Shown here: positions 780 to 34,168 of the stretch, piece by piece
Layout of the letters: each line of letters opens with the position of its first letter
How positions within the stretch are numbered: position 1 is the stretch's first letter
Origin: Nautilus pompilius
Taxonomy: Eukaryota > Mollusca > Cephalopoda > Nautilida > Nautilidae
DNA: 64,000 nt
Reading direction: 5' to 3'
Assembly: GCA_018389105.1 (NCBI GenBank)
Contig: JACATO010000046.1
Span: forward strand, 124,001-188,000
The notes under the pieces: generated by a model
Seen by the model: only the letters and a program-made list of their open reading frames with translations
Databases searched by the model: none
What the model was told of the DNA's origin: nothing
Position numbers and translations under genes: made by a program

Positions 780-873
780 ATGGTAGATTGTGGTAGTCTA
801 CGGTGTGTTCAGGAGAGACGGGGCTTGAGGAAGGAGCTGCTTTCGTGGGGCAAGAAGATCCCCGTCTTAATAG
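780..873 (+). CDS. E93: E93-like exon 1 (start exon)
   Basis: Encodes residues 1-31 and the first base of codon 32, beginning [20 protein letters not shown]. It ends at a strong donor (ATAG|GTAAGG). The [15 protein letters not shown] block is the most N-terminal conserved segment of the LCOR/E93 family, which makes both this exon and its ATG credible despite the 24.5 kb to the next exon. No in-frame ATG further upstream has any sign of conservation. Confidence 0.85.
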
Positions 874-3800: not shown

Positions 3801-6800
3801 TCTACGTTTGTCAGCTCGTGCAGTGTCACGGGTTTCACCAGATCAAATTATACGACAGTCATCTGGTAAAAGCTCAGTAAACGATAAAAACATCATCATC
3901 TTTTATTGTGATAAAAACAAAAGTTAGTGAAATAATGAAAATATGAGCCATCAGGTCCAGAAGCTTCATGATTTTATGTATTATTTTATTTAGAAAATTC
4001 TTTAAAATTAGTTCCTGCACAGTTAGAACTTCCAAGTTGCTCACCTCTTGTTGTCTTTCTTTCTTCTCAATTCTTAGTCTCTCTGTTCCATAAACTGATT
4101 ACCTCCCCACCCACAAAAAAAAAAAAAAATAAAGGATATGTATCTACAACCACAACAACAGAATCACACATCAAGTAGATGGCATGAAATTTCCACCACA
4201 TGTTTTAAAATATCATGACCTCAGAATACAAAAACAACATGAGGATGGTTCAGTAAAAGAATTTTTCAAAACAATTGGTTGGAATGACAAACAAGCGGCG
4301 TAAAGATGATCTATGCTTCTGTCCCGTGCCGATGGTGGGGGTGTGGGACCAACTACTGGAATTCTACATAAAACTTCCCTAAAAACACCTGTTATATTGC
4401 CAAACAGATGACACAGTTTACGATAACCTTGTATAAAGTGAAATGGTGGACAGAGATTAGTGCCAGCTAACCCATGTATGCACAAAGATCTAAAGTTCTA
4501 GACTGCAAGAATTATACAAGCAGGGTTCCAGTAAGATGAACAATGAATACGTAATTCAGGGAAAGCTCACATCATTGATTTTCAATTTACACCTTTTAAG
4601 AGTTTTTAGGCAGAGATTTTTGACATTTAAGAATTTCCATCTTGTGATTAGTTTGGAAAGTACACGTCACACGGATTATATGTTAAGGAGTCCATGATCT
4701 CCCCAAATGCAGAAGTCAGAACGAAAAGCTTATGACATTTCTTAGCAAATGCCTCTGGGGAATCTGATACTCGATAGCACGTAACTGGTGATGGCCCCTT
4801 CTAAGATTCCTTTGTATGTTAAGGGAGAAAAGCAACAGGTTGGTAAGAAGACTGTTTATATTGAGGTTGTGTTGAAAGATAAGCTGTTAAATAAATAAAG
4901 AAATTGTTAATGAAGGGGATACAACTTACCCTCAAAAGTAATTCATTTTCTATAAATCTTCTGAGGCTTCTAAAATATTCATCAAGCTTTCTCCTCTTTT
5001 TAGCATACTGACAAAAACAAGGCTCATACATCCAAGTTTGATGGTAAATATCTGTTATTATAGATAACCAGAAAGTTCGAAAACTTTCAACCATAAAAGG
5101 GTACAAAGCAGGTCCTTTAAAAACATTCAGCACCCTACTGCTCAAAGAAAACTTGTAACTTTGACGATTAGTTACTATATTGTATTATTTTATCATTTGT
5201 CCTGCTCAGATGGCTGAAAGTGCTGTAAAGTGTATTATTCACCTAAAAATTATATATAGCTTCTCTTTCCTTGAATTATTTTTGAATACTTCAATCAAAT
5301 CACCCTTAAAATAACGTTAGGCTAAAGTAAGCCATTTGAGCCTTTGTAGTCTTTCTAGATAACTATATATATAATTGCTCATGCCTCTGATCATCCTAGT
5401 AAATTTCCTTTGAACCTTTTCTTGACAGACAAACCCCATTTGGTAATGAGAACAGGATTCCATGCTTAGAAACTGCCACATTAAATGATTAAATAAAGTG
5501 AAGAGTCATATGCTACAGCCATAGCCAAAAGTTGTGCATCAACCTGGAATTTTCTGACTTTAGAAACAGTTATCTGCATCAAGCAAATTTAGCACTAGAT
5601 AACTTGCAATAGTGAATTAAACCAACCTGTTGCTTTTCTCCCTTAACATACAGAGGAATCTTAGAAGGGGCCATCACCAGTTACGTGCTATCGAGTATCA
5701 GATTCCCCAGAGGCATTTGCTAAGAAATGTCGTAAGCTTTTCGTTCTGACTTCTGCATTTGGGGAGATCATGGACTCCTTAACATATAATCCGTGTGACG
5801 TGTACTTTCCAAACTAATCACAAGATGGAAATTCTTAAATGTCAAAAATCTCTGCCTAAAAACTCTTAAAAGGTGTAAATTGAAAATCAATGATGTGAGC
5901 TTTCCCTGAATTACGTATTCATTGTTCATCTTACTGGAACCCTGCTTGTATAATTCTTGCAGTCTAGAACTTTAGATCTTTGTGCATACATGGGTTAGCT
6001 GGCACTAAATCTCTGTCCACCATTTCACTTTATACAAGGTTATCGTAAACTGTGTCATCTGTTTGGCAATATAACAGGTGTTTTTAGGGAAGTTTTATGT
6101 AGAACTTCCAGTAGTTGGTCCCACACGCCGCCACCATCGGCACGGGACAGAAGCATAGATCATCTTTACGCCGCTTGTTTGTCATTCCAACCAATTGTTT
6201 TGAAAAATTCTTTTACTGAACCATCGTCGTGTTGTTTTTGTATTCTGAGGTCATGATATTTTAAAACGTGTGGTGGAAATTTCATGCCATCTACTTGATG
6301 TGTAATTCTGTTGTTGTGGTTGTAGATACATATCCTTTATTTTTTTTTTTTGTGGGTGGGGAGGTAATCAGTTTATGGAACAGAGAGACTAAGAATTGAG
6401 AAGAAAGAAAGACAACAAGAGGTGAGCAACTTGGAAGTTCTAACTGTGCAGGAACTTTTTTTTTTCTCTAAAGAAACTCTGTGGCTCTATTTTTATTAGT
6501 CCCCTGACAATGACAGTGAGTTTTCATGATTGCCAGATATTTTATAATTTGGTCAGAATACTGACACCATGACACTGAATGCACCCACTTACACAGCTGG
6601 TTGTGCATGAAGAGTTCATAGGGGTTTTATTTGAATTGCTTATCCAGTTTTGCCTTTATTTGAAGTATGGCAATGCCCTGCCTGTCATTCTTCTTTTTAT
6701 TGCTGTTGGCAAAACTTTTAAAGCTATTATACTGTCCAACTGCTATTGTTAGTCAAGCAGAACTGCAACTTATTAACAGTATTTCCTGTTGGGGCTGGGT

Positions 6801-9800
6801 ATTGTTTACCCAGTGGCATGTGTTCCAGATAACAGGTTATCACTTATGTGAGGGCAGGTACAATTTAGTTCCTGTTGGGTCAGGGATTTAGCTTGTACAG
6901 TCTTCCTCCCTACTATAATTAGAATTTTTTTTGTAAGTTCTTCGTTAAAGTTAGTTTAAGTCAGTGTGCAATGGGCGCATTTGTATAGAGCTGTTGACTG
7001 TCATTTTGCAAACTTCTTCCTTGGCTGGCTTAGCTGGTGTGAAGTGCCTCATTATGAGACCTTTATTATCTGTGGTTTTCCACACACACACATATAAATA
7101 TATATATCAGCGATATTAGCTGTATCATTTTACAGGGGAGTTGAAACAGAATTCGGTATACAGCCAATGGATATATATATATATTAAAATGGCTAAAGGT
7201 TTGTTCAGCTAAAGTGGGGAGGGGACCTGCCATCGTGATCTGTGTACATTGTATGAGTTATTAAGAAAGAGACAAAAAACAAGTAAACACATCTAATGCA
7301 TTAATACTGGAATAGCGGCATCAAAATAGTTTCTTTTGACGCAGCAGTGAGACGAAAGCTACTCGCAGACACTGAATAAGCTGGGATCATCTGACTCGGG
7401 GGGGGGGGGCGGTGAACAGTGGACCAGTCAGGTGCCAGTGTGTGCCTCACACTAGTACAAATGCAGTGGTGTTTTCTCGCAGTAACCATCTTCAAGACAG
7501 CTCATTTACTGCAACTGTTGGCCATCAGGATGGCCAGAAGAAAGGAAATATGTCAGGAAATCATCTACTTTTTACACTTTGAGAGGCGGAGATGGAAAGA
7601 GAAGAGGCGAAAGCAGCTCAGAACATCTAACAAAGGTGTCTCATTGTGCATTGAAAAGAAAACAGCTCAGGGTGTCAAGCATGGAGTTAAAAAATGAACA
7701 GGACAAAAGGGAGTTGTAGCGTCTGTGTTAGAGGACAAATATATCATGCCAGAGTATAGCAAAGCTGACTTTCATGGAACCAAAGGCAGTTGTTCCTCTC
7801 ATGGCAGTGAAAAAGCATCTTAGAACTGCTGGTCTAAATGGGTATTTAAACCACCCCAAGATGATTAGGGTTAAACAGAAAAGGGAAAGAACTAAATGGG
7901 GAAATTTGCACATTATAGGCACAACTGAAAGTTTGACCTTTGTGGGTCAGGATGTAGAGCTTTTGTCCATCAACAGGTTGAAAAACATCAAACTGCTTGG
8001 TGTTATTGCTTTGGTGAAGTGTATGGCTGGCAGCACAAAGGTTAGAGGTGTTTTGAAGCATATCAGGTTGGCAATATGTACAGAAGTAGGGGAACATTAT
8101 ACAAGGAAGATTGCCATGATGTTTTATAATGACAGGTGATATTCTCTGTAGCATCCCGACTTATTGGTGAAGGGTTAATTCCCCATTTTTTTGGGGGAGG
8201 TAACACCCCCCAGGGCGCACTTTCTAGATTATGCAGATAGTCTGTGGGGCATTAAGCGGCAGCAAGCATGTGTTCTCCAAAACATGGTTTTGGATGTGTC
8301 AATGACCAGGTTTGTCATAGCTCGAACTTATTCATGATGAAAGCCGTCAGAAAAGTAAAACAAACAATGCAACACAGTTTTTCCACAACAAAATGCCATA
8401 GAATCCAGCAACACCAGACTGGTTTATTTTATGATATTCTTTGCTAGAAAGCAAAAAAATGTCTGGCTGCATTGATGACAGCGGTATGTAATCCCACCTG
8501 CCCCCTATAGCAGGTTAGTGGTATCTGTCTTTGAGCTGGCTACATATTTGGTCAGATATCATAACGCAGAACACACAGGGTTGGAGCTGTGTGGATTTGT
8601 CATCACAAAGGGCTACATTATTGAGGTAGGTCCTGTGTCATAGCCCCTACAGCTCAACCTGTGCCAAGTAATGCAGATTTAAAGGGTAGTGCATCCCAAT
8701 TGGTATACAGTGGGTTAAGTATAAATATATTAACTGTTCACTTCCAAATTTATGGCCAAAGGAATATGAAAGTCTGTTCTCAATAACTGTTTTAGTGAAT
8801 CAGGACGAAGATAGCTATAGTCTGGGTCAGTCAACTAAGAGCCTTCAGGCATAATTTTTTTCAGTAGAACTGTTCTCATTCTCACAGGACTTTTCTAGCC
8901 TGAACAACCAAGGCTCATTTGTAGCTCTAATCCCTTTTAGATCCGTGTCTTCTATCAGGGCCAGAGAGAACCAGTGTGTCTGGTTACACAGATCTGATGT
9001 TACTATCCTTTCTACTCAAGCAAACTATCTTGGTCTCAAACCTGTCGACATCGGAAAATTTAATTATAGCTTATATCCATTTCATTTGATAATTTTCGGT
9101 TAGTAATTGTAGTTATAACATTAAGTATAAGGAAACCTTTAAGGAGGCAGTTTATACCCGCAGAGCACTTTTGCTAAAACAAATATATGTCTACCAGATG
9201 TGGTACGTTCCTACATAATTACCAGTTCTGTTGGGTCTTCTGAAGTCAGAGAGATCAGGTGCATTTTTCTTGATTTTTAAATCCTTTTCTCTTCTCACTG
9301 ATAGTCTCAGTCCCCAACATAAGTTTCTTATTTCTATAGTAACTAGGAATAAGTGGTAACAAGAACAACAACAGGTGATTCTAAACAACCTTGTATTAAA
9401 AATATCGAAAAAAGATGGTTATAAGTGGCTTTGAATAAATCACATTGCACGGCTCCATTCTTTTAGCAAAATCTTTTGCGCTTGCTCATTTTTCTTTCTC
9501 TCTCCCCCTTTTTGTCTTTCTTTTTTTCTTTTTCTCATCATTTTCTTTTTCATCCTTCTCTCTATCTTTCAGCATCTCTATCTATCTTTCAGCATCTCTC
9601 TCTCTCTCTCTCATATATGTACACACTGTAAAATATATTAAAAAAACTCATAGTGGAACAGGTATTCCTAACATATGCTTTCATAACTGGTAAGGCTATT
9701 CTACTTTGCCCAATATGTATTAACTTGGTTACTGGTGTGCGATTATTTAGTCTTACCATTTTCAAACACTGATTATGAGTACTGTCATAAAAGGTAAAGC

Positions 9801-22659: not shown

Positions 22660-23429
22660 CACACACACACAACTCCACAATTCAAAGTAAGTGTGCTTTC
22701 TCTCATTGATTGATATTTTTAAAAAAAATTTTTACTTTCCACTCTCAATTTTGTATCCACTAGGGGACATTTAGATGAAAACTGGAGCTGGGTGGGGCAG
22801 ATGCCACTTTGGCGATACTATTTCAGCTAAGTTCCATCTGAAAGTCTCCGGTAGTCCATCCACGGCTAAGATATAGTTGGGGGGACCACCGACCTACCGC
22901 CACACTGCTGAAGAAATACTTCTTTCTTCTTTTTTTTTTTTGAAGCAGCCTCTCTCTCCCTCTCACATAGGTTGTTGGTCCACGGTTTACTTCAGCCACA
23001 TCTTTGGCCCTGACGGAAAACAAGGAGAATCTCTTGCCTCCAGGTCGATGTCATTAATCACCGTCTCATCAATAATGTACATTAGGTTAGGGTCGGTTAA
23101 ATTCAGACCTGTGGCATTTGTTTACTTAAAAAAAAATTTTAAAGAGAATACTTGCTTTTCTTTGCCCAGACCCTCTCTCTCTCTCTCTCTCTCTCTCTCC
23201 ACTCTTCCCCATCCTCTCTCTCTCTCTCTCTCTCTCTCACTCTTCCCCATCTCTCTCTCTCTCTCTCTCCTCTCTTTCTCTCTCTTCCCATCTCTCTCTT
23301 CTCTCTTCTCTCTCACTCTTTTCCCCATCTCTCTCTCTCTCTCTTCCTCTCTTTCCCCATCTCTCTCTCTCCTCTTCCTCTCTTTCCCCATTCTCTTCTC
23401 TCTCTCTCTTCTCCTCTTTTCCCCCCCCA

Positions 23430-23468
<39 letters not shown>

Positions 23469-29400: not shown

Positions 29401-32400
29401 AGACCCAACTCTTGCCACCTGACACAGCAAATACCCATCGAGAACCAAAATGCAAGCATGTTGCAATACCACGGCACTGACTCAACCCCACCCACATTCC
29501 TCTATGTTTACTATTCCCACCTGTGTATCTGCTTGTTTTTTCTTTCAAGCTTCCATCTTTTTTAGCCTGCCTGTTTAAACAGGGATTTACATTTCTTTTT
29601 TCAAACTCTTTTAAAGCAGCCAACTGTACAAAATCTTGTACAAACAGCCAGCATTTTACACTCTACTCCAACATTTTCTGTTGGGTAACAGGCCCCATTT
29701 GTACGAAATTATTAACCCTTGCACGGCTGCTGTGCAAACATGAGAATAGACAAACTCGCCGGTGGTTTGAAGTATTTGTATTTTCCTTGTTGCCGCCACT
29801 TTTAGGCCATTATCTCCACTTGGCTTTTATTGTAGCAGCAGATAGTTTACGTTTGTTTTTTCTTAGTTATGGAGAAAGACCAAGGAGTCTTTGGCTGCCT
29901 AGTTCGGCCTATGGATGTCTTCATGGGAACACGATAGAAGTATTTAAAAATTTTAATATATTATTTATTTGTTTACTTATTCTTCTTTGGAAAGGTCTTG
30001 AAACAGAAGAGATCAGTGATTGGGAACCTCAAGAAGTTTGCATTTACTGTGAAGGCAAAATAAAATTTCCAGTAAGTAAAACGAAAGATTTAATAAGAAT
30101 TTTTTTTTCTCCTCCTCGCCATTGTGCTTATTGAATTCTTCATAAGATGACTTCATGTTATATGATGAAGGCAGATTGATGTATGGTCTTGGTGTGTCTC
30201 AGGGTTATATAAACATCTACTATAAATCTTCAGTAGCTGCTGCTTTTATTTAATGACCAACAAGAGAATGAACAATTCCAGAGTTTCAGACTTAATTTAT
30301 AATATCCAGATGACACTTTGCAGACCGTGTTTGCTGCTCACAGATACTCTAGCTAGTGCATAGTAATTTAACTACTTAAGATGAAGCTTATCCCAAGTCT
30401 GCCACTACATCACTGTCATTTTTACAACTTGGTTTTGATACCCGAGTTACTAGTCGCTGCACACCATCATCTTATGCGAAGTTACCCCGACAGGACAACG
30501 GGAAATCTACCAGAGGTTTACTGAAACTGTCACCCTTGAAATAAACATGTGACATCTTTGTCTCTGTGGTAAAGGAGGGAAAACTGGATTTTCTTATTAA
30601 GATTTCATTGATCCTTTAAACATCTGCGAAGAATGCTAGTCTCTATATGGTCAGGTCATGTGATAAAAAACCAAAAAATTAGCAACAAGAATTAGAATAG
30701 GTTGCTGCTGTACTACTTGGCACTGTTAAAAGACAACAGGACATCTATGATTAGCCAATAGCCAGCTGAGATCAAAGGGATTTAGTAGCATCAGATTTGC
30801 AATTTTCAATCCTTTTTTTTGTTCTAGGATAATTCTGTTTTAACTCTCTGAAACACACAAGATTTTACCTTACTTCCTGATAACCTGGAACCATCAGTTA
30901 GTATCTACAACTGGGTGTGTATTTAGTCAGCACACTCTTAATGTAAAACACGACAGCTGGAGCAATAAAGGGATTTGTCATTACAAAAGGTTATGTTAGT
31001 AAAGAGGGCGCTGTATGTCAGTGCTTATGGATCAGCCTGCCCTGAGTAATTCAGATTTCAGATGTGAAAGAGGGTGGTTGTATACAAGGGGTTAAAGAGG
31101 ATCCAAAGACTTGTCATCTTGTTGAAGCCTGAATATATTTTAATTCTAAGCCAGTGTTGACCAAAGTTGGGTTTTATGGTTAGAACACCAACAATCTTAC
31201 AATATAGGAAGGGGACTATAGGAAATTGGAAATTCTCTTCTGTTGATCAAGGCTCTAACTAAACTTCATGATTTACTTTACATTGTAGGATCCCCTGGAT
31301 CCAAATGAAGACAGTGACAGCTTGAAGGGAAATTCTGGTAAATTTTTTGTTTGTTTTGTTTAATATGGAAATCTACAAGTTGTAACATTGGAGCTACAAG
31401 TGGGATACTTGATAGGGCTCTCATCCTCTTTGTTGTAAAGGTCCCTTTGGCCAAGTGGTGTTTCTGTGATACATTGGACATAGCTGGGGTTGACAATTAG
31501 GGGGCAATCCACAGCGTCAATTTTACGCGTGGTGAGATGGTCAAATTTATCTTTTGAGCTGCCAAATTAATGGACTTTGCCTCAGGTTTACTCACAAAAG
31601 TTGGTGAGAGAAGATGTCGGCAGTGGCCTACCTCGAAGTTGTCAGCCTTGTGATTGACATATAAAGGTTTTGCTATTAGCTGGTTACTTACTTTTTAAAA
31701 TTTTTCTCTCTCTCTAGTTTTCAAATGTACACCGGAGCTTCTGCCATATTGTCCACAATATTACACAGGCAGCTTCGACGTCTCTCAGCCTCTAGACCTC
31801 AGTTCCAATGGCTACATTGACAGCGTGCCATCTCCTGGCAGCAGCTGGGAGCTTGATGCTGTTACAAAACCTCATGTTGAGCTAAAGATACCACATATCG
31901 TACTACAAGCAGGGTAAGTAAGTCTGAGTGGACTTTCACAAATCCCCAACTGTTCTCTCATTGTTACTGACACAGCAGGAATGCATATAATGTAATCATT
32001 CTGTATTTCACTGGTTTACTAGTTTGTTTTTTTTTTTTTGTAAAAATTTGTCTTTCTTATCATAATAATTAGTAGTTTATGGCCATGTGTATAATACTCA
32101 AGACATTTTTTGTTTTAGTTGTAGCTTCTTTTTTTTTTTTCCACAACAGATCAGTTGACCCCAGTTCTTTTCATAGTCTGTGGACTGTTTAAGATCATTG
32201 CCTAGTTGCTTGATGAAGTTGTTGGGGTCATCAGTTAGAGCCCAGGAGGTACAGCTATTATGCTACAGAATTCCATGGTGCTGTCTCCTTTGTAAAAGAT
32301 CCATTGATTCTCTATAAATTTTCAAACTGAGACCGCGCTATTAAAATCTGTCTGTGCTTTACAGAAACCTCAGCAAATATCTCGTCTACCTGGGATTTGC

Positions 32401-34168
32401 TGGGAGGTTCAGTCCCGAGAGGGCAGCACTGGAGTCTGGGCCTGAACCTTGATGATGGCAACAGGGGAAGTTTACCAAAGAAATGAGGGGTTATTAATTA
32501 GCCGCGGTTCCCCTGATGAGGTGTTGGTGGGGGGGAGCCCTGAGAAAGTACACTTTCTACGATGGTGGTCTTTATCTTTCTTGGTTGACTTTCAGAAAAT
32601 GTAAAAAGGACCACCTGCAGAACGGAAAAAAGGCCTACACCGAGGAGGAGCTGGTGACAGCCGTGAATGAGATCCGCAGTGGGAAACTGGGAACACGCAG
32701 GGCAGCTGTGTTGTATGGAATTCCACGCTCAACACTACGTAATAAAATATTCAAAATGGAATCAGAAGAGCAGCAGCAGCAGCAGATCAAAGGTGTTGAC
32801 CAGGAGTGTAGCGAAGACAGTCAGCACTCTGAGTCAATGGCAGCAACTCATGGCGGAGACATGCTGCATCTGCAATCATACTCAGTATATTATCCGTCTA
32901 TGTCAAGCATCGTACCTTTTCATCATGAACTTCTGCAGAAGAACGAAGATGACTGGGAGAAAAAGCTTGAGCAGATCCGACGCAAGCATAATCTGAACAG
33001 TTCCAGCCAGAAAGTGGAAAAGCAGCAGCAGCAGCAGCAGCAGCCGCCGGGTGGGCCAGGTAGCGAACTCAGACTGCCACTGCTCCACAACCTGGTGCGC
33101 AGGATGGCTGAGCAGCGCCTCCTGCTGGAGCAGAGCACTTCACACTTGCGGTCACCTGCTGCCTTGGAGACGCATCACCACCAAGAGGCAAACTGTCCAC
33201 AGGCTGATCCCACCCAGTCTTGCAATGTGTCCCTAAAAATTCCGTCCTACAGGCCCGCCAAGGCCCAGAACACGATTGACGCGAGCAGCAGCAGCAGTGA
33301 GGGTGTGACAGGCCACCGGTCTTACGAGAGCGGCAGGATCGGCGAAGCGCTCAAGGACATCATCGTGAAGACGATATCGGAGAAGGTCTATAAGAGGAAG
33401 CAGCTGGGCGAGTCGCTGCTGCTCGGCACCCGCACCCAGGACGAAAACCACCCCAGCAAGAACTGCAGAACGTACGTGGATCCTTCCTCTCCATCATCCT
33501 CCCTCGCTGCCATGCCCCACCCAAACAAGAGATTCAAGAAGTCCCCCATTACCGACAGGAAAGATGACTCCTCTTCGCTCAGGGTTCCAGTGAAGAAGAC
33601 TCGTCCAAAGCGCGGCCAGTACCGCAAGTACAACAGCCAGCTGCTGATGGAGGCCGTGCGGGCCGTCCAGCGTGGGGAGATGAGCGTGCACCGCGCCGGC
33701 AGCTACTACGGCGTGCCGCACTCCACTCTTGAGTACAAGGTGAAGGAGCGGCACCTGCTGAGACAGAAGAAACTGAAGGAATCCCAAGTGCAGAAGGACG
33801 CGAGCAGTGGGGCCTCATCCGAGGATTCCAGCAACACGAACCCTCCGGCTCCGAGCACCGCCGACATGTCCGCGAAGTCGGAGAAACCGAGCAATAGCGG
33901 GGGGGCAAAATTCAGCTGCAAGCCCCTGACCCTGCCCTGGCTCCAGCCCTATGCTAACGGCAGCCCCCAGTATGACGGTACCGGCATGAACTTCTTCAGC
34001 AGCAGCTTCGCGCTGAGCACCCCCGCCTCGGAGCTCCTGCGCAAGCTCCAGCACAAAGTACAGAACAAATCAAATTCCTTCGCTCAGGACAGTAACTTTC
34101 TCGCTGGGAACCTCCACCGACCGAACGGCATGGGTTCGTTGGGCGGTAGCTTTCTTTTCATTAACTAA
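780..34168 (+). CDS. E93: E93 / Mblk-1 / LCOR-family psq-HTH transcription factor (6 coding exons)
   Basis: Joined exons 780-873, 25413-25481, 29995-30071, 31289-31337, 31718-31913 and 32596-34168 give 685 residues plus TAA, with every phase matching. Residues 1-80 match the vertebrate LCOR/LCORL N-terminal domain: a [13 protein letters not shown] block, G-L-E-T-I followed by exactly 22 residues to a Cys as in LCOR, then EISDW and C-I-Y-C. Residues 121-125 are PLDLS, a CtBP-docking motif. The first psq helix-turn-helix is about 173-215 ([22 protein letters not shown]) and the second about 500-552 ([19 protein letters not shown]), preceded by a basic, NLS-like run. Between them lie two poly-Q runs, the block [15 protein letters not shown] and the block [13 protein letters not shown] (from about 412), which I recall from E93-type proteins. 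The family are nuclear DNA-binding regulators; insect E93 is the ecdysone-induced adult specifier, and LCOR is a nuclear-receptor corepressor. The function here is inferred from family. Start choice: the ATG at 780 begins the conserved block. The name could equally be given as LCOR-like. Confidence 0.92.
850..1800. promoter_or_regulatory. CpG-rich stretch around the 5' end of the E93-like gene
   Basis: This part of the window is visibly GC- and CpG-rich compared with the AT-rich remainder, and has many short C/G runs (for example 1014-1024, 1386-1392 and 1420-1432), tandem GGAC (1275-1290) and CCCT (1355-1373) tracts and a GGTCG run near 1742-1755. It starts inside exon 1 and covers the beginning of intron 1. 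Such a block at the 5' end of a developmental regulator is promoter-like; the function is inferred from composition only. Confidence 0.45.
2718..2764. repeat. compound (CTA)n(AAT)n microsatellite
   Basis: About eight CTA units run directly into about nine AAT units. Intronic, with no coding role. Confidence 0.95.
4010..4844 (+). repeat. left arm of a 2.4 kb long inverted repeat
   Basis: The 835 bp from 4010 (AGTTCCTGCACAG) to 4844 (ACAGGTTGGT) is the near-perfect reverse complement of 5631-6456. Only a few substitutions and single-base indels separate the arms, for example GCACTAAT versus GCACTAAAT and the GGTGGGGGTG versus GGCGGCG region, so they look a few percent diverged at most. No transposase or known repeat family is recognised inside the arm. 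An open frame on the minus strand (4213-4485) is not preserved in the other arm. Confidence 0.95.
5281..5430 (-). mobile_element. LINE remnant (CR1/L2/jockey-type reverse transcriptase C-terminal end)
   Basis: On the minus strand it reads [15 protein letters not shown], then [12 protein letters not shown], a stop and frame loss, and [10 protein letters not shown]. This is the characteristic K-V-Q-R-R-x-T-K-M-I ... R-L-x-x-L-x-L-x-x-L-E-x-R-R-x-R-G-D-L-I-x-x-[FY]-K-I segment that follows the polymerase domain in CR1/L2/jockey-like LINEs. Inactive, and located in the spacer between the inverted-repeat arms. Confidence 0.8.
5631..6456 (-). repeat. right arm of the long inverted repeat
   Basis: Reverse complement of 4010-4844. 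It begins ACCAACCTGT and ends TGCAGGAACT, directly followed by a T run. The two arms enclose a 786 bp spacer. The inner and outer limits are sharp on both sides. Confidence 0.95.
8480..8720. repeat. dispersed repeat, copy 1 (about 230 bp)
   Basis: Shares an ordered series of blocks with 18340-18570 and 30866-31098: TATTTGGTCAG, AACACACAGGGTTGGAGC, GGATTTGTCATCACAAAGG, GAGG...CTGTGTCAT, AAGTAATGCAGATTT and a terminal GTATACAGTGGGTTAA. It is short, non-coding and the same size each time, so it is SINE- or MITE-like. No tRNA-like promoter boxes or terminal inverted repeats were seen. Confidence 0.7.
14200..14395 (+). mobile_element. possible tRNA-derived SINE remnant
   Basis: The order GTCAATGGTCTAGGAGTTTTACTACTAA then TTTGATTCCCAGTGGGGC resembles decayed A and B boxes of a tRNA gene, followed by about 110 bp and a short AT-rich tail with AATAAAG. 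No clean target-site duplication is seen, so this is tentative. Confidence 0.35.
15135..15158. repeat. (GT)n microsatellite
   Basis: Twelve GT units in intron 1. A second shorter GT/TA compound tract lies at about 15418-15444. Confidence 0.95.
15541..15840 (+). mobile_element. SINE-like remnants
   Basis: TTGATTAGACAATTGGACTGGC and GAGTTCAATTCTTGC are spaced like tRNA A and B boxes near 15558-15603. A second block (about 15711-15830) shares GTGGATAACNGTGGCA-type sequence and a following CCAGG with about 62025-62160, so it is probably another SINE copy. Both are diverged. Confidence 0.35.
15881..16330 (+). mobile_element. LINE reverse-transcriptase remnant
   Basis: Two diagnostic polymerase motifs of CR1/jockey-like LINEs are present in different frames. 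At 15881 the frame reads [12 protein letters not shown] (motif A). At 16156 it reads [13 protein letters not shown] (motif C, the YADD catalytic box) followed by [10 protein letters not shown]. Stops and frameshifts show that it is dead. It has the same orientation as the host gene. Confidence 0.8.
16364..17402 (-). mobile_element. degenerate Tc1/mariner element
   Basis: Minus-strand fragments read [14 protein letters not shown] (the W-x-x-V-x-[FW]-x-D-E-S region before the DDE core), then [14 protein letters not shown], and at the C-terminus [19 protein letters not shown], the typical Tc1 ending. The ends are imperfect inverted repeats: CAGTGGCTGGTGACC next to TA at 16362, and the complement of AATAAAGTGGGCAGCC near 17380-17395. 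Several frames are broken, so it is inactive. The right boundary is approximate. Confidence 0.8.
18340..18572. repeat. dispersed repeat, copy 2
   Basis: Same block order as 8480-8720. It carries the blocks TTTTACCTTAATTA, CCTGACCAGCCTGGAAGC, TTGGAGCAATGATTTGTC, CATAAAAGGTTAT and a terminal GGAGGGTTAA. It is diverged from the other copies, so the family is not recent. Confidence 0.65.
21662..21706. repeat. (TTA)n microsatellite
   Basis: About fifteen uninterrupted TTA units in intron 1. Confidence 0.97.
22629..22671. repeat. (CA)n microsatellite
   Basis: About twenty CA units with one CC interruption. Confidence 0.97.
23169..23466 (+). repeat. 300 bp (CT)n polypyrimidine tract
   Basis: Nearly 300 bp of C and T only, mainly CTCTCT broken by CCCCAT and TTCC spacers at irregular intervals (minisatellite-like variants such as CTCTTTCCCCATCT). 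The transcribed sense RNA would be pure pyrimidine. Long open frames here are artefacts of composition. Confidence 0.97.
25413..25481 (+). CDS. E93: E93-like exon 2
   Basis: A 69 bp exon between a pyrimidine-rich acceptor (CTTTTCCAG) and a GTAAGT donor, entered in phase 1 and left in phase 1. It completes G32 and encodes residues 33-54 ([18 protein letters not shown]...). The distance from the invariant Gly to the next Cys equals that of human LCOR, where FESILEGLYGP occupies this place. It is too short to be called from open reading frame alone; spacing, phase and splice sites carry the call. Confidence 0.8.
25482..29994 (+). other. E93-like intron 2
   Basis: A 4.5 kb phase-1 intron. It contains an unexplained 139-codon open frame on the minus strand (25590-26009), a stretch near 26460-26540 reminiscent of Tc1 termini, and an exon-like segment near 28975-29090; none is firm. 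Nothing else is recognisable. Confidence 0.7.
29995..30071 (+). CDS. E93: E93-like exon 3
   Basis: Encodes Cys55 (split codon) and residues 56-80, [20 protein letters not shown] and five more residues. The acceptor is GGAAAG and the donor is CCA|GTAAGT, so it leaves in phase 0. The pattern C-x-E-x-E-E-[IL]-[ST]-D-W followed by C-x-x-C matches the LCOR/E93 N-terminal domain, probably a small metal-binding fold together with the exon 1 cysteines (inference). Confidence 0.9.
30072..31288 (+). other. E93-like intron 3
   Basis: A 1.2 kb phase-0 intron whose centre (about 30866-31098) is the third copy of the dispersed repeat also found in intron 1. No coding sequence is visible. Confidence 0.75.
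30866..31098. repeat. dispersed repeat, copy 3
   Basis: Shares with copies 1 and 2 the blocks TTTTACCTTA, CCTGATAACCTGGAAC, AGCTGGAGCAAT, GGATTTGTCATTACAAAAGG, CTGTATGTCA, GAGTAATTCAGATTT and GTATACAAGGGGTTAAA. It lies in intron 3 in the same orientation as the other two. Confidence 0.7.
31289..31337 (+). CDS. E93: E93-like exon 4 (acidic mini-exon)
   Basis: A 49 bp exon (acceptor ATTGTAG, donor TCTG|GTAAAT) encoding residues 81-96, [16 protein letters not shown], then one base. It enters in phase 0 and leaves in phase 1, exactly as its neighbours require. It is low-complexity and acidic with no known domain. Because phases force either this exon or another of the same phase between exons 3 and 5, it is likely real, but it could be alternatively used. 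Confidence 0.75.
31338..31717 (+). other. E93-like intron 4
   Basis: A 380 bp phase-1 intron (GTAAAT...CTCTCTAG) with a poly-T/CT polypyrimidine tract before the acceptor. Nothing else is seen. Confidence 0.75.
31718..31913 (+). CDS. E93: E93-like exon 5 with CtBP-binding motif
   Basis: A 196 bp exon after a (CT)n-rich acceptor (TCTCTCTCTAG) with donor GCAGG|GTAAGT, phase 1 to phase 2, residues 97-161. It contains [14 protein letters not shown] is the consensus recognised by the CtBP corepressor and is found in LCOR and in insect E93. The end, [13 protein letters not shown], resembles the K-I-P stretches of LCOR-family proteins. Confidence 0.9.
31914..32595 (+). other. E93-like intron 5
   Basis: A 682 bp phase-2 intron (GTAAGT...TTTCAG). 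The end of it is open in the exon 6 frame from 32516, so retention would give a shortened protein starting just before psq domain 1. No repeats are recognised except T runs. Confidence 0.75.
32596..34168 (+). CDS. E93: E93-like exon 6 (both psq helix-turn-helix domains, stop)
   Basis: A 1573 bp terminal exon starting after TTTCAG; its first base completes Gly162 and it encodes residues 163-685 to TAA at 34166-34168. It carries psq domain 1 near its start, Q305-Q311, the conserved leucine-rich block [15 protein letters not shown], the [13 protein letters not shown] block, psq domain 2 and a Ser/Pro-rich tail. An open frame also runs upstream to an ATG at 32516, but the splice acceptor and phase show that this upstream part is intron. 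The GC content and coding density are far above the flanking introns. Confidence 0.95.

Follow-up and report, generated by a model that had tools for sequence, protein, structure and literature searches.

The window, as the whole 64-kb stretch of DNA analysed here is called, contains an inverted repeat of 2447 bp, in which two near-identical arms surround a spacer and whose left arm matched only the two arms themselves in one search of the assembly. The repeat is real, chance being excluded, and it lies within an E93/LCOR-like gene (sense strand), downstream of the coding exon that ends at 873 and upstream of a probable exon at 29995-30071. It probably arose through a local fold-back or template-switch event, which would have produced a single-copy inverted duplication, either young or homogenised by conversion, whose hairpin would be transcribed and have no dedicated function. 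No evidence of function was found, and the repeat looks like an ordinary copying accident.

Anatomy and intronic setting

The repeat was composed of the following parts:

4010..4844, forward strand: left arm, 835 bp, without four single bases of the right arm and with six fewer CpG
4845..5620, no strand assigned: spacer (loop), 776 bp, 32% GC, CpG observed/expected ratio 0.15
5621..6456, reverse strand: right arm, 836 bp

The arms were reverse complements of each other from end to end, with an alignment comprising 832 aligned columns, 6 substitutions (99.3% identity) and 5 indel events that accounted for 7 gap columns, and with the longest perfect runs reaching 276, 105, 95, 95 and 78 bp. The arm match was recovered by BLAST over 845 columns at 98.1% (E = 0; 4004-4844 against 5621-6462), and, with low-complexity sequence masked, no other self-match within the window reached E <= 1e-5. 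Near-identical inverted arms with sharp ends had been described in the first-pass annotation of this DNA, and both observations were borne out by the arm-arm alignment, which nevertheless placed the start of the right arm at 5621 instead of 5631 and reduced the spacer from 786 to 776 bp.

The setting of the repeat was established from the exons of the host gene, for which a human LCORL sequence was used as the query:

780..873, forward strand: coding exon 1 of the host gene, with the donor GTAAGG at 874; matches human LCORL (E 5.6e-4)
29995..30071, forward strand: probable next exon found, preceded by AG and followed by GTAAGT; weak match (E 0.44)
32630..33751, forward strand: part of the large exon, spanning two HTH_psq stretches, by Pfam and LCORL match

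The large exon (~32.6-34.2 kb) was covered by a 556-aa open frame (32498-34165), in which the two HTH_psq stretches were recognised by Pfam (E 4.1e-28) and which matched pieces of human LCORL (E 7e-15), while NCBIfam returned no families for this exon. In this way, the intronic place on the transcribed strand that had been proposed earlier agrees with the donor of exon 1 upstream and the probable exon downstream, and the repeat is intronic unless a further exon lies between 873 and 29995. An imperfect CT-rich tract of 293 bp (23173-23465) was observed in the same intron.

Copy number and sequence content

The left arm was used in one search of its own assembly (727,640,739 bases in 2558 contigs), in which the best candidates are scored and very common words are skipped. 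Two candidates were obtained, both were scored, and both fell within the window, where they corresponded to the two arms; no other match was found at E <= 1e-3. The right flank (6457-7600) had one place in the assembly. Since the arm occupied two places and the right flank a single one, there was no sign of a repeat family or, for this flank, of a second haplotype contig. Two near-identical inverted copies and none elsewhere in this search are what defines a single-copy inverted segmental duplication. It had been considered beforehand that the arm could exist elsewhere as a member of a repeat family; such a family was absent from the search, and two inverted insertions of one family were disfavoured as an explanation, given that only the two arm places were scored.

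The genomic background was sampled over 160 kb (16 stretches, each of 10 kb), and no comparable long inverted repeat was found among matches of at least 80 columns at E <= 1e-10, a sample that is too small to give a rate and that misses repeats cut by the stretch ends. Near-perfect short palindromes were observed in two of these stretches, at 2633-2763 of L003 (131 bp, 88%) and at 2419-2577 of L017 (159 bp, 91%), and are perhaps small elements of the hairpin type. The CpG observed/expected ratio was 0.75-1.0 in L003, L007, L014 and L017 and 0.15-0.43 in the other 12 of the 16, a pattern that patchy methylation or foreign contigs would give. None of the publication titles listed dealt with this repeat, so that its absence from print is not claimed.

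Searches of the assembly revealed dispersed repeats in the spacer and none in the left arm:

5226..5470, no strand assigned: decayed dispersed repeat in the spacer, parts of which matched at least 13 other assembly places
5506..5562, no strand assigned: short dispersed motif in the spacer, parts of which matched at least 10 other places at 82-94%

The spacer search, carried out at E <= 1, returned 24 places including the spacer itself, and alignments were viewed for 7 of the other 23. Among the matches to 5226-5470, 12 were at 68-81% and one, of 36 bp, at 94%. The motif at 5506-5562, about 45-55 bp long, was more alike among its places than the neighbouring decayed repeat, and it may be the conserved core of an old element. 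The spacer had previously been said to carry a decayed LINE scrap; the decayed dispersed repeat was confirmed by the assembly matches, whereas its identity as a LINE was not supported. A shark-type LINE end scored 24.5 against the spacer, below the best of 200 shuffles (37.5), and was dropped. A 121-aa open frame on the reverse strand (4822-5184), which lies mostly in the spacer, matched Pfam Baculo_LEF5 at E 0.0015 with 19 bits against a curated cut-off of 25, which is probably a chance match.

No gene was recognised in the arms. A 56-codon open frame was present in both of them (4133-4303 on the forward strand, with its mirror at ~6166-6336 on the reverse strand), and all four substitutions within it fell at third positions, three being silent and one exchanging Glu and Asp. 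Its interpretation as a coding sequence was rejected because open frames of at least 56 codons occurred about 4.1 times per 835 bp on both strands in 8001-29900 (107 in total), which places its length at the chance level, and because no relative was found in Pfam (0 families), PDB (0), phage records (no match) or viral contigs, where none of 38 pattern stretches was confirmed. The earlier statement that no transposase is recognisable was upheld by Pfam for the two repeat frames scanned, one in an arm and one in the spacer. Rfam at gathering cut-offs gave no hit over the window, and a tRNA scan likewise gave none.

Origin of the repeat and alternative explanations

The favoured origin starts from a break or a stalled replication fork near one arm, after which fold-back or template-switched copying would have reproduced ~835 bp of the intron in the opposite orientation, while the 776 bp that escaped copying stayed as the spacer between the arms. 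The event would be evolutionarily young, or else the arms would have been made alike by recent conversion; the earlier proposal, which offered gene conversion still in progress as the alternative to a recent inverted duplication, stands as an either-or. This origin is favoured by the 99.3% identity of sharply ended arms, by the two arm places being the only ones scored in the assembly search, and by the older look of the spacer, with its dispersed repeats mostly at 68-81% and its CpG observed/expected ratio of 0.15, against 0.36 and 0.54 in the arms. The intron would then be transcribed with the gene, giving a hairpin of ~830 pairs that would probably undergo nuclear editing by ADAR and then be spliced out, without any dedicated function.

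It is also conceivable, although unlikely, that the inverted repeat itself is old and that gene conversion between its arms has preserved their likeness, as has been proposed for Caenorhabditis and for Y-chromosome palindromes (PMC1803023). The high arm identity beside an old-looking spacer would fit such maintenance, as would the uneven distribution of the differences, 8 of the 11 lying within 4165-4456 and the 276-bp perfect run being found further in. However, this clustering was not significant in shuffles, either for all differences (tails of 0.46, 0.09 and 0.15 in 150-, 200- and 300-bp windows) or for the substitutions (0.06 and 0.68 in 100- and 300-bp windows), and the inference of conversion from clustered differences was therefore dropped. 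Moreover, old arms would be expected to have accumulated dispersed repeats as the spacer did, and none was found in the one assembly search with the left arm.

Quite unlikely, too, is an artefact of assembly or consensus, affecting either the whole repeat or its fine differences. Arms so alike are hard to polish, and indels made up 5 of the 11 differences (tail 0.016 if a share of 15% is assumed), with all four of the single-base ones corresponding to bases absent from the left arm. These gaps hint at an imperfect consensus, real change and poor polishing being both possible. On the other hand, an artefact of the whole repeat would require two junctions flanked on both sides by other sequence, as well as 11 differences between the arms, and there was no N anywhere in the window and a single assembly place for the right flank.

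The CpG content offered no guide to the direction of copying. Seventeen CpG were counted in the right arm and 11 in the left, all six differing ones being in the right arm. This asymmetry (two-sided sign chance 0.03, by hand) was not taken as evidence of copy direction, because neighbouring CpG are not independent. Among 27 intron stretches of 836 bp, four held at least 17 CpG and eight at least 11, so that the CpG content of the arms is unexceptional.

The capacity of the pre-mRNA to fold back, as had been suggested, was supported by structure prediction, in which 830 arm-arm pairs were formed and 2657 nt reached -1718 kcal/mol, against -598 kcal/mol in one shuffle of the right arm, a gain in stability of about 1120 kcal/mol. 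A transcript able to form a long hairpin is thus predicted, and the intronic duplex would likely be edited by ADAR; for paired Alus, editing was reported to depend on distance and homology (PMC526178). The same fold would suit an hpRNA locus, in which dicing of the hairpin transcript would yield siRNAs for the silencing of another gene, and in the sense RNA the mispairs comprised four G-U, one C-A and, from the single transversion, one G-G, four of the five transitions (among six substitutions) keeping a G-U pair. This proportion was, however, within chance (one-sided 0.19, by hand), and the hairpin would be intronic. In addition, an hpRNA and its target typically have sequence in common, over anything from a single siRNA to long stretches (PMC10317233), and no extended sequence common with a target gene was found when the left arm was compared with the assembly at E <= 1e-3. 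A hairpin-siRNA role is hence without support within the scope of extended matches, and an hpRNA locus is considered very unlikely.

A mobile element of the foldback type, with terminal inverted repeats of 835 bp and a short middle, was regarded as similarly improbable. The shape of the repeat, with long inverted ends, a short middle and sharp edges, would agree with such an element, which had been proposed before as an undescribed one. The proposal was weakened by the finding of one scored arm pair in 727.6 Mb, where multiple copies would be expected, and by the ends, at which no flanking duplication of 5-12 bp abutted the outer borders among words sought within ~15 bp of them. For the whole repeat the longest shared word was of 5 bp, with copies at 3992 and 6472 that lie 14-16 bp beyond the outer ends. 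The longest for arm 1 was a 6-mer and for arm 2 a pyrimidine run of 7 bp, with one copy inside the arm in both cases. All of these words were of low complexity, none abutted both ends, and none looks like a target-site duplication. Microhomology at the junctions, which is the signature of fold-back or template-switch copying, would be hidden, because bases common to both sides are read as arm. The middle also contains old dispersed repeats, and the two frames scanned (one arm, one spacer) lacked a transposase.

It is also very unlikely that the hairpin is of recent origin and serves the E93-like gene in cis or as a source of siRNAs, in which case a long intronic double strand, its arms homogenised by conversion between them, would alter the processing of a metamorphosis-class regulator or feed short siRNAs to targets that it matches over single-siRNA lengths.

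Comparison with known systems

As an interstitial inverted duplication of small size within an intron, the repeat is a clean case, its arms having been recognised neither as a gene nor as a repeat family. With its age set through a relative, it would provide a simple natural test of whether youth or conversion accounts for the persistence of such arms, and of whether the host gene tolerates an intronic duplex of 830 bp; otherwise it is ordinary.

In human fold-back inverted duplications, uncopied spacers of 766-70,466 bp were reported, together with inverted microhomology of 2-8 bp at 13 of 21 sequenced junctions (PMC3907307). The present repeat resembles them in having inverted copies around an uncopied spacer, whose 776 bp are near the short end of that range. 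The human cases described in that source, however, stand beside terminal deletions, translocations or rings, whereas the arms described here are of 835 bp and interstitial, so that a fold-back would need a second switch.

Long near-identical arms and a spacer are also shared with the maintained inverted repeats of Caenorhabditis (PMC1803023), although those are described as intergenic, located between paralogous gene pairs and common to several species, while the repeat reported here is intronic and has no gene recognised in its arms. The hpRNA loci of Drosophila (PMC10317233) are alike in being transcribed inverted repeats able to form long dsRNA; unlike those described there, the present one is intronic and has no extended target match in the assembly search. 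Finally, the repeat has the predicted intramolecular pairing of inverted copies in common with ADAR-edited pairs of Alus in opposite orientation (PMC526178), many of which are intronic, although its arms are longer and no repeat family to which they would belong was seen. The feature is of a known kind, namely a single-copy intronic inverted duplication, either young or maintained by conversion.
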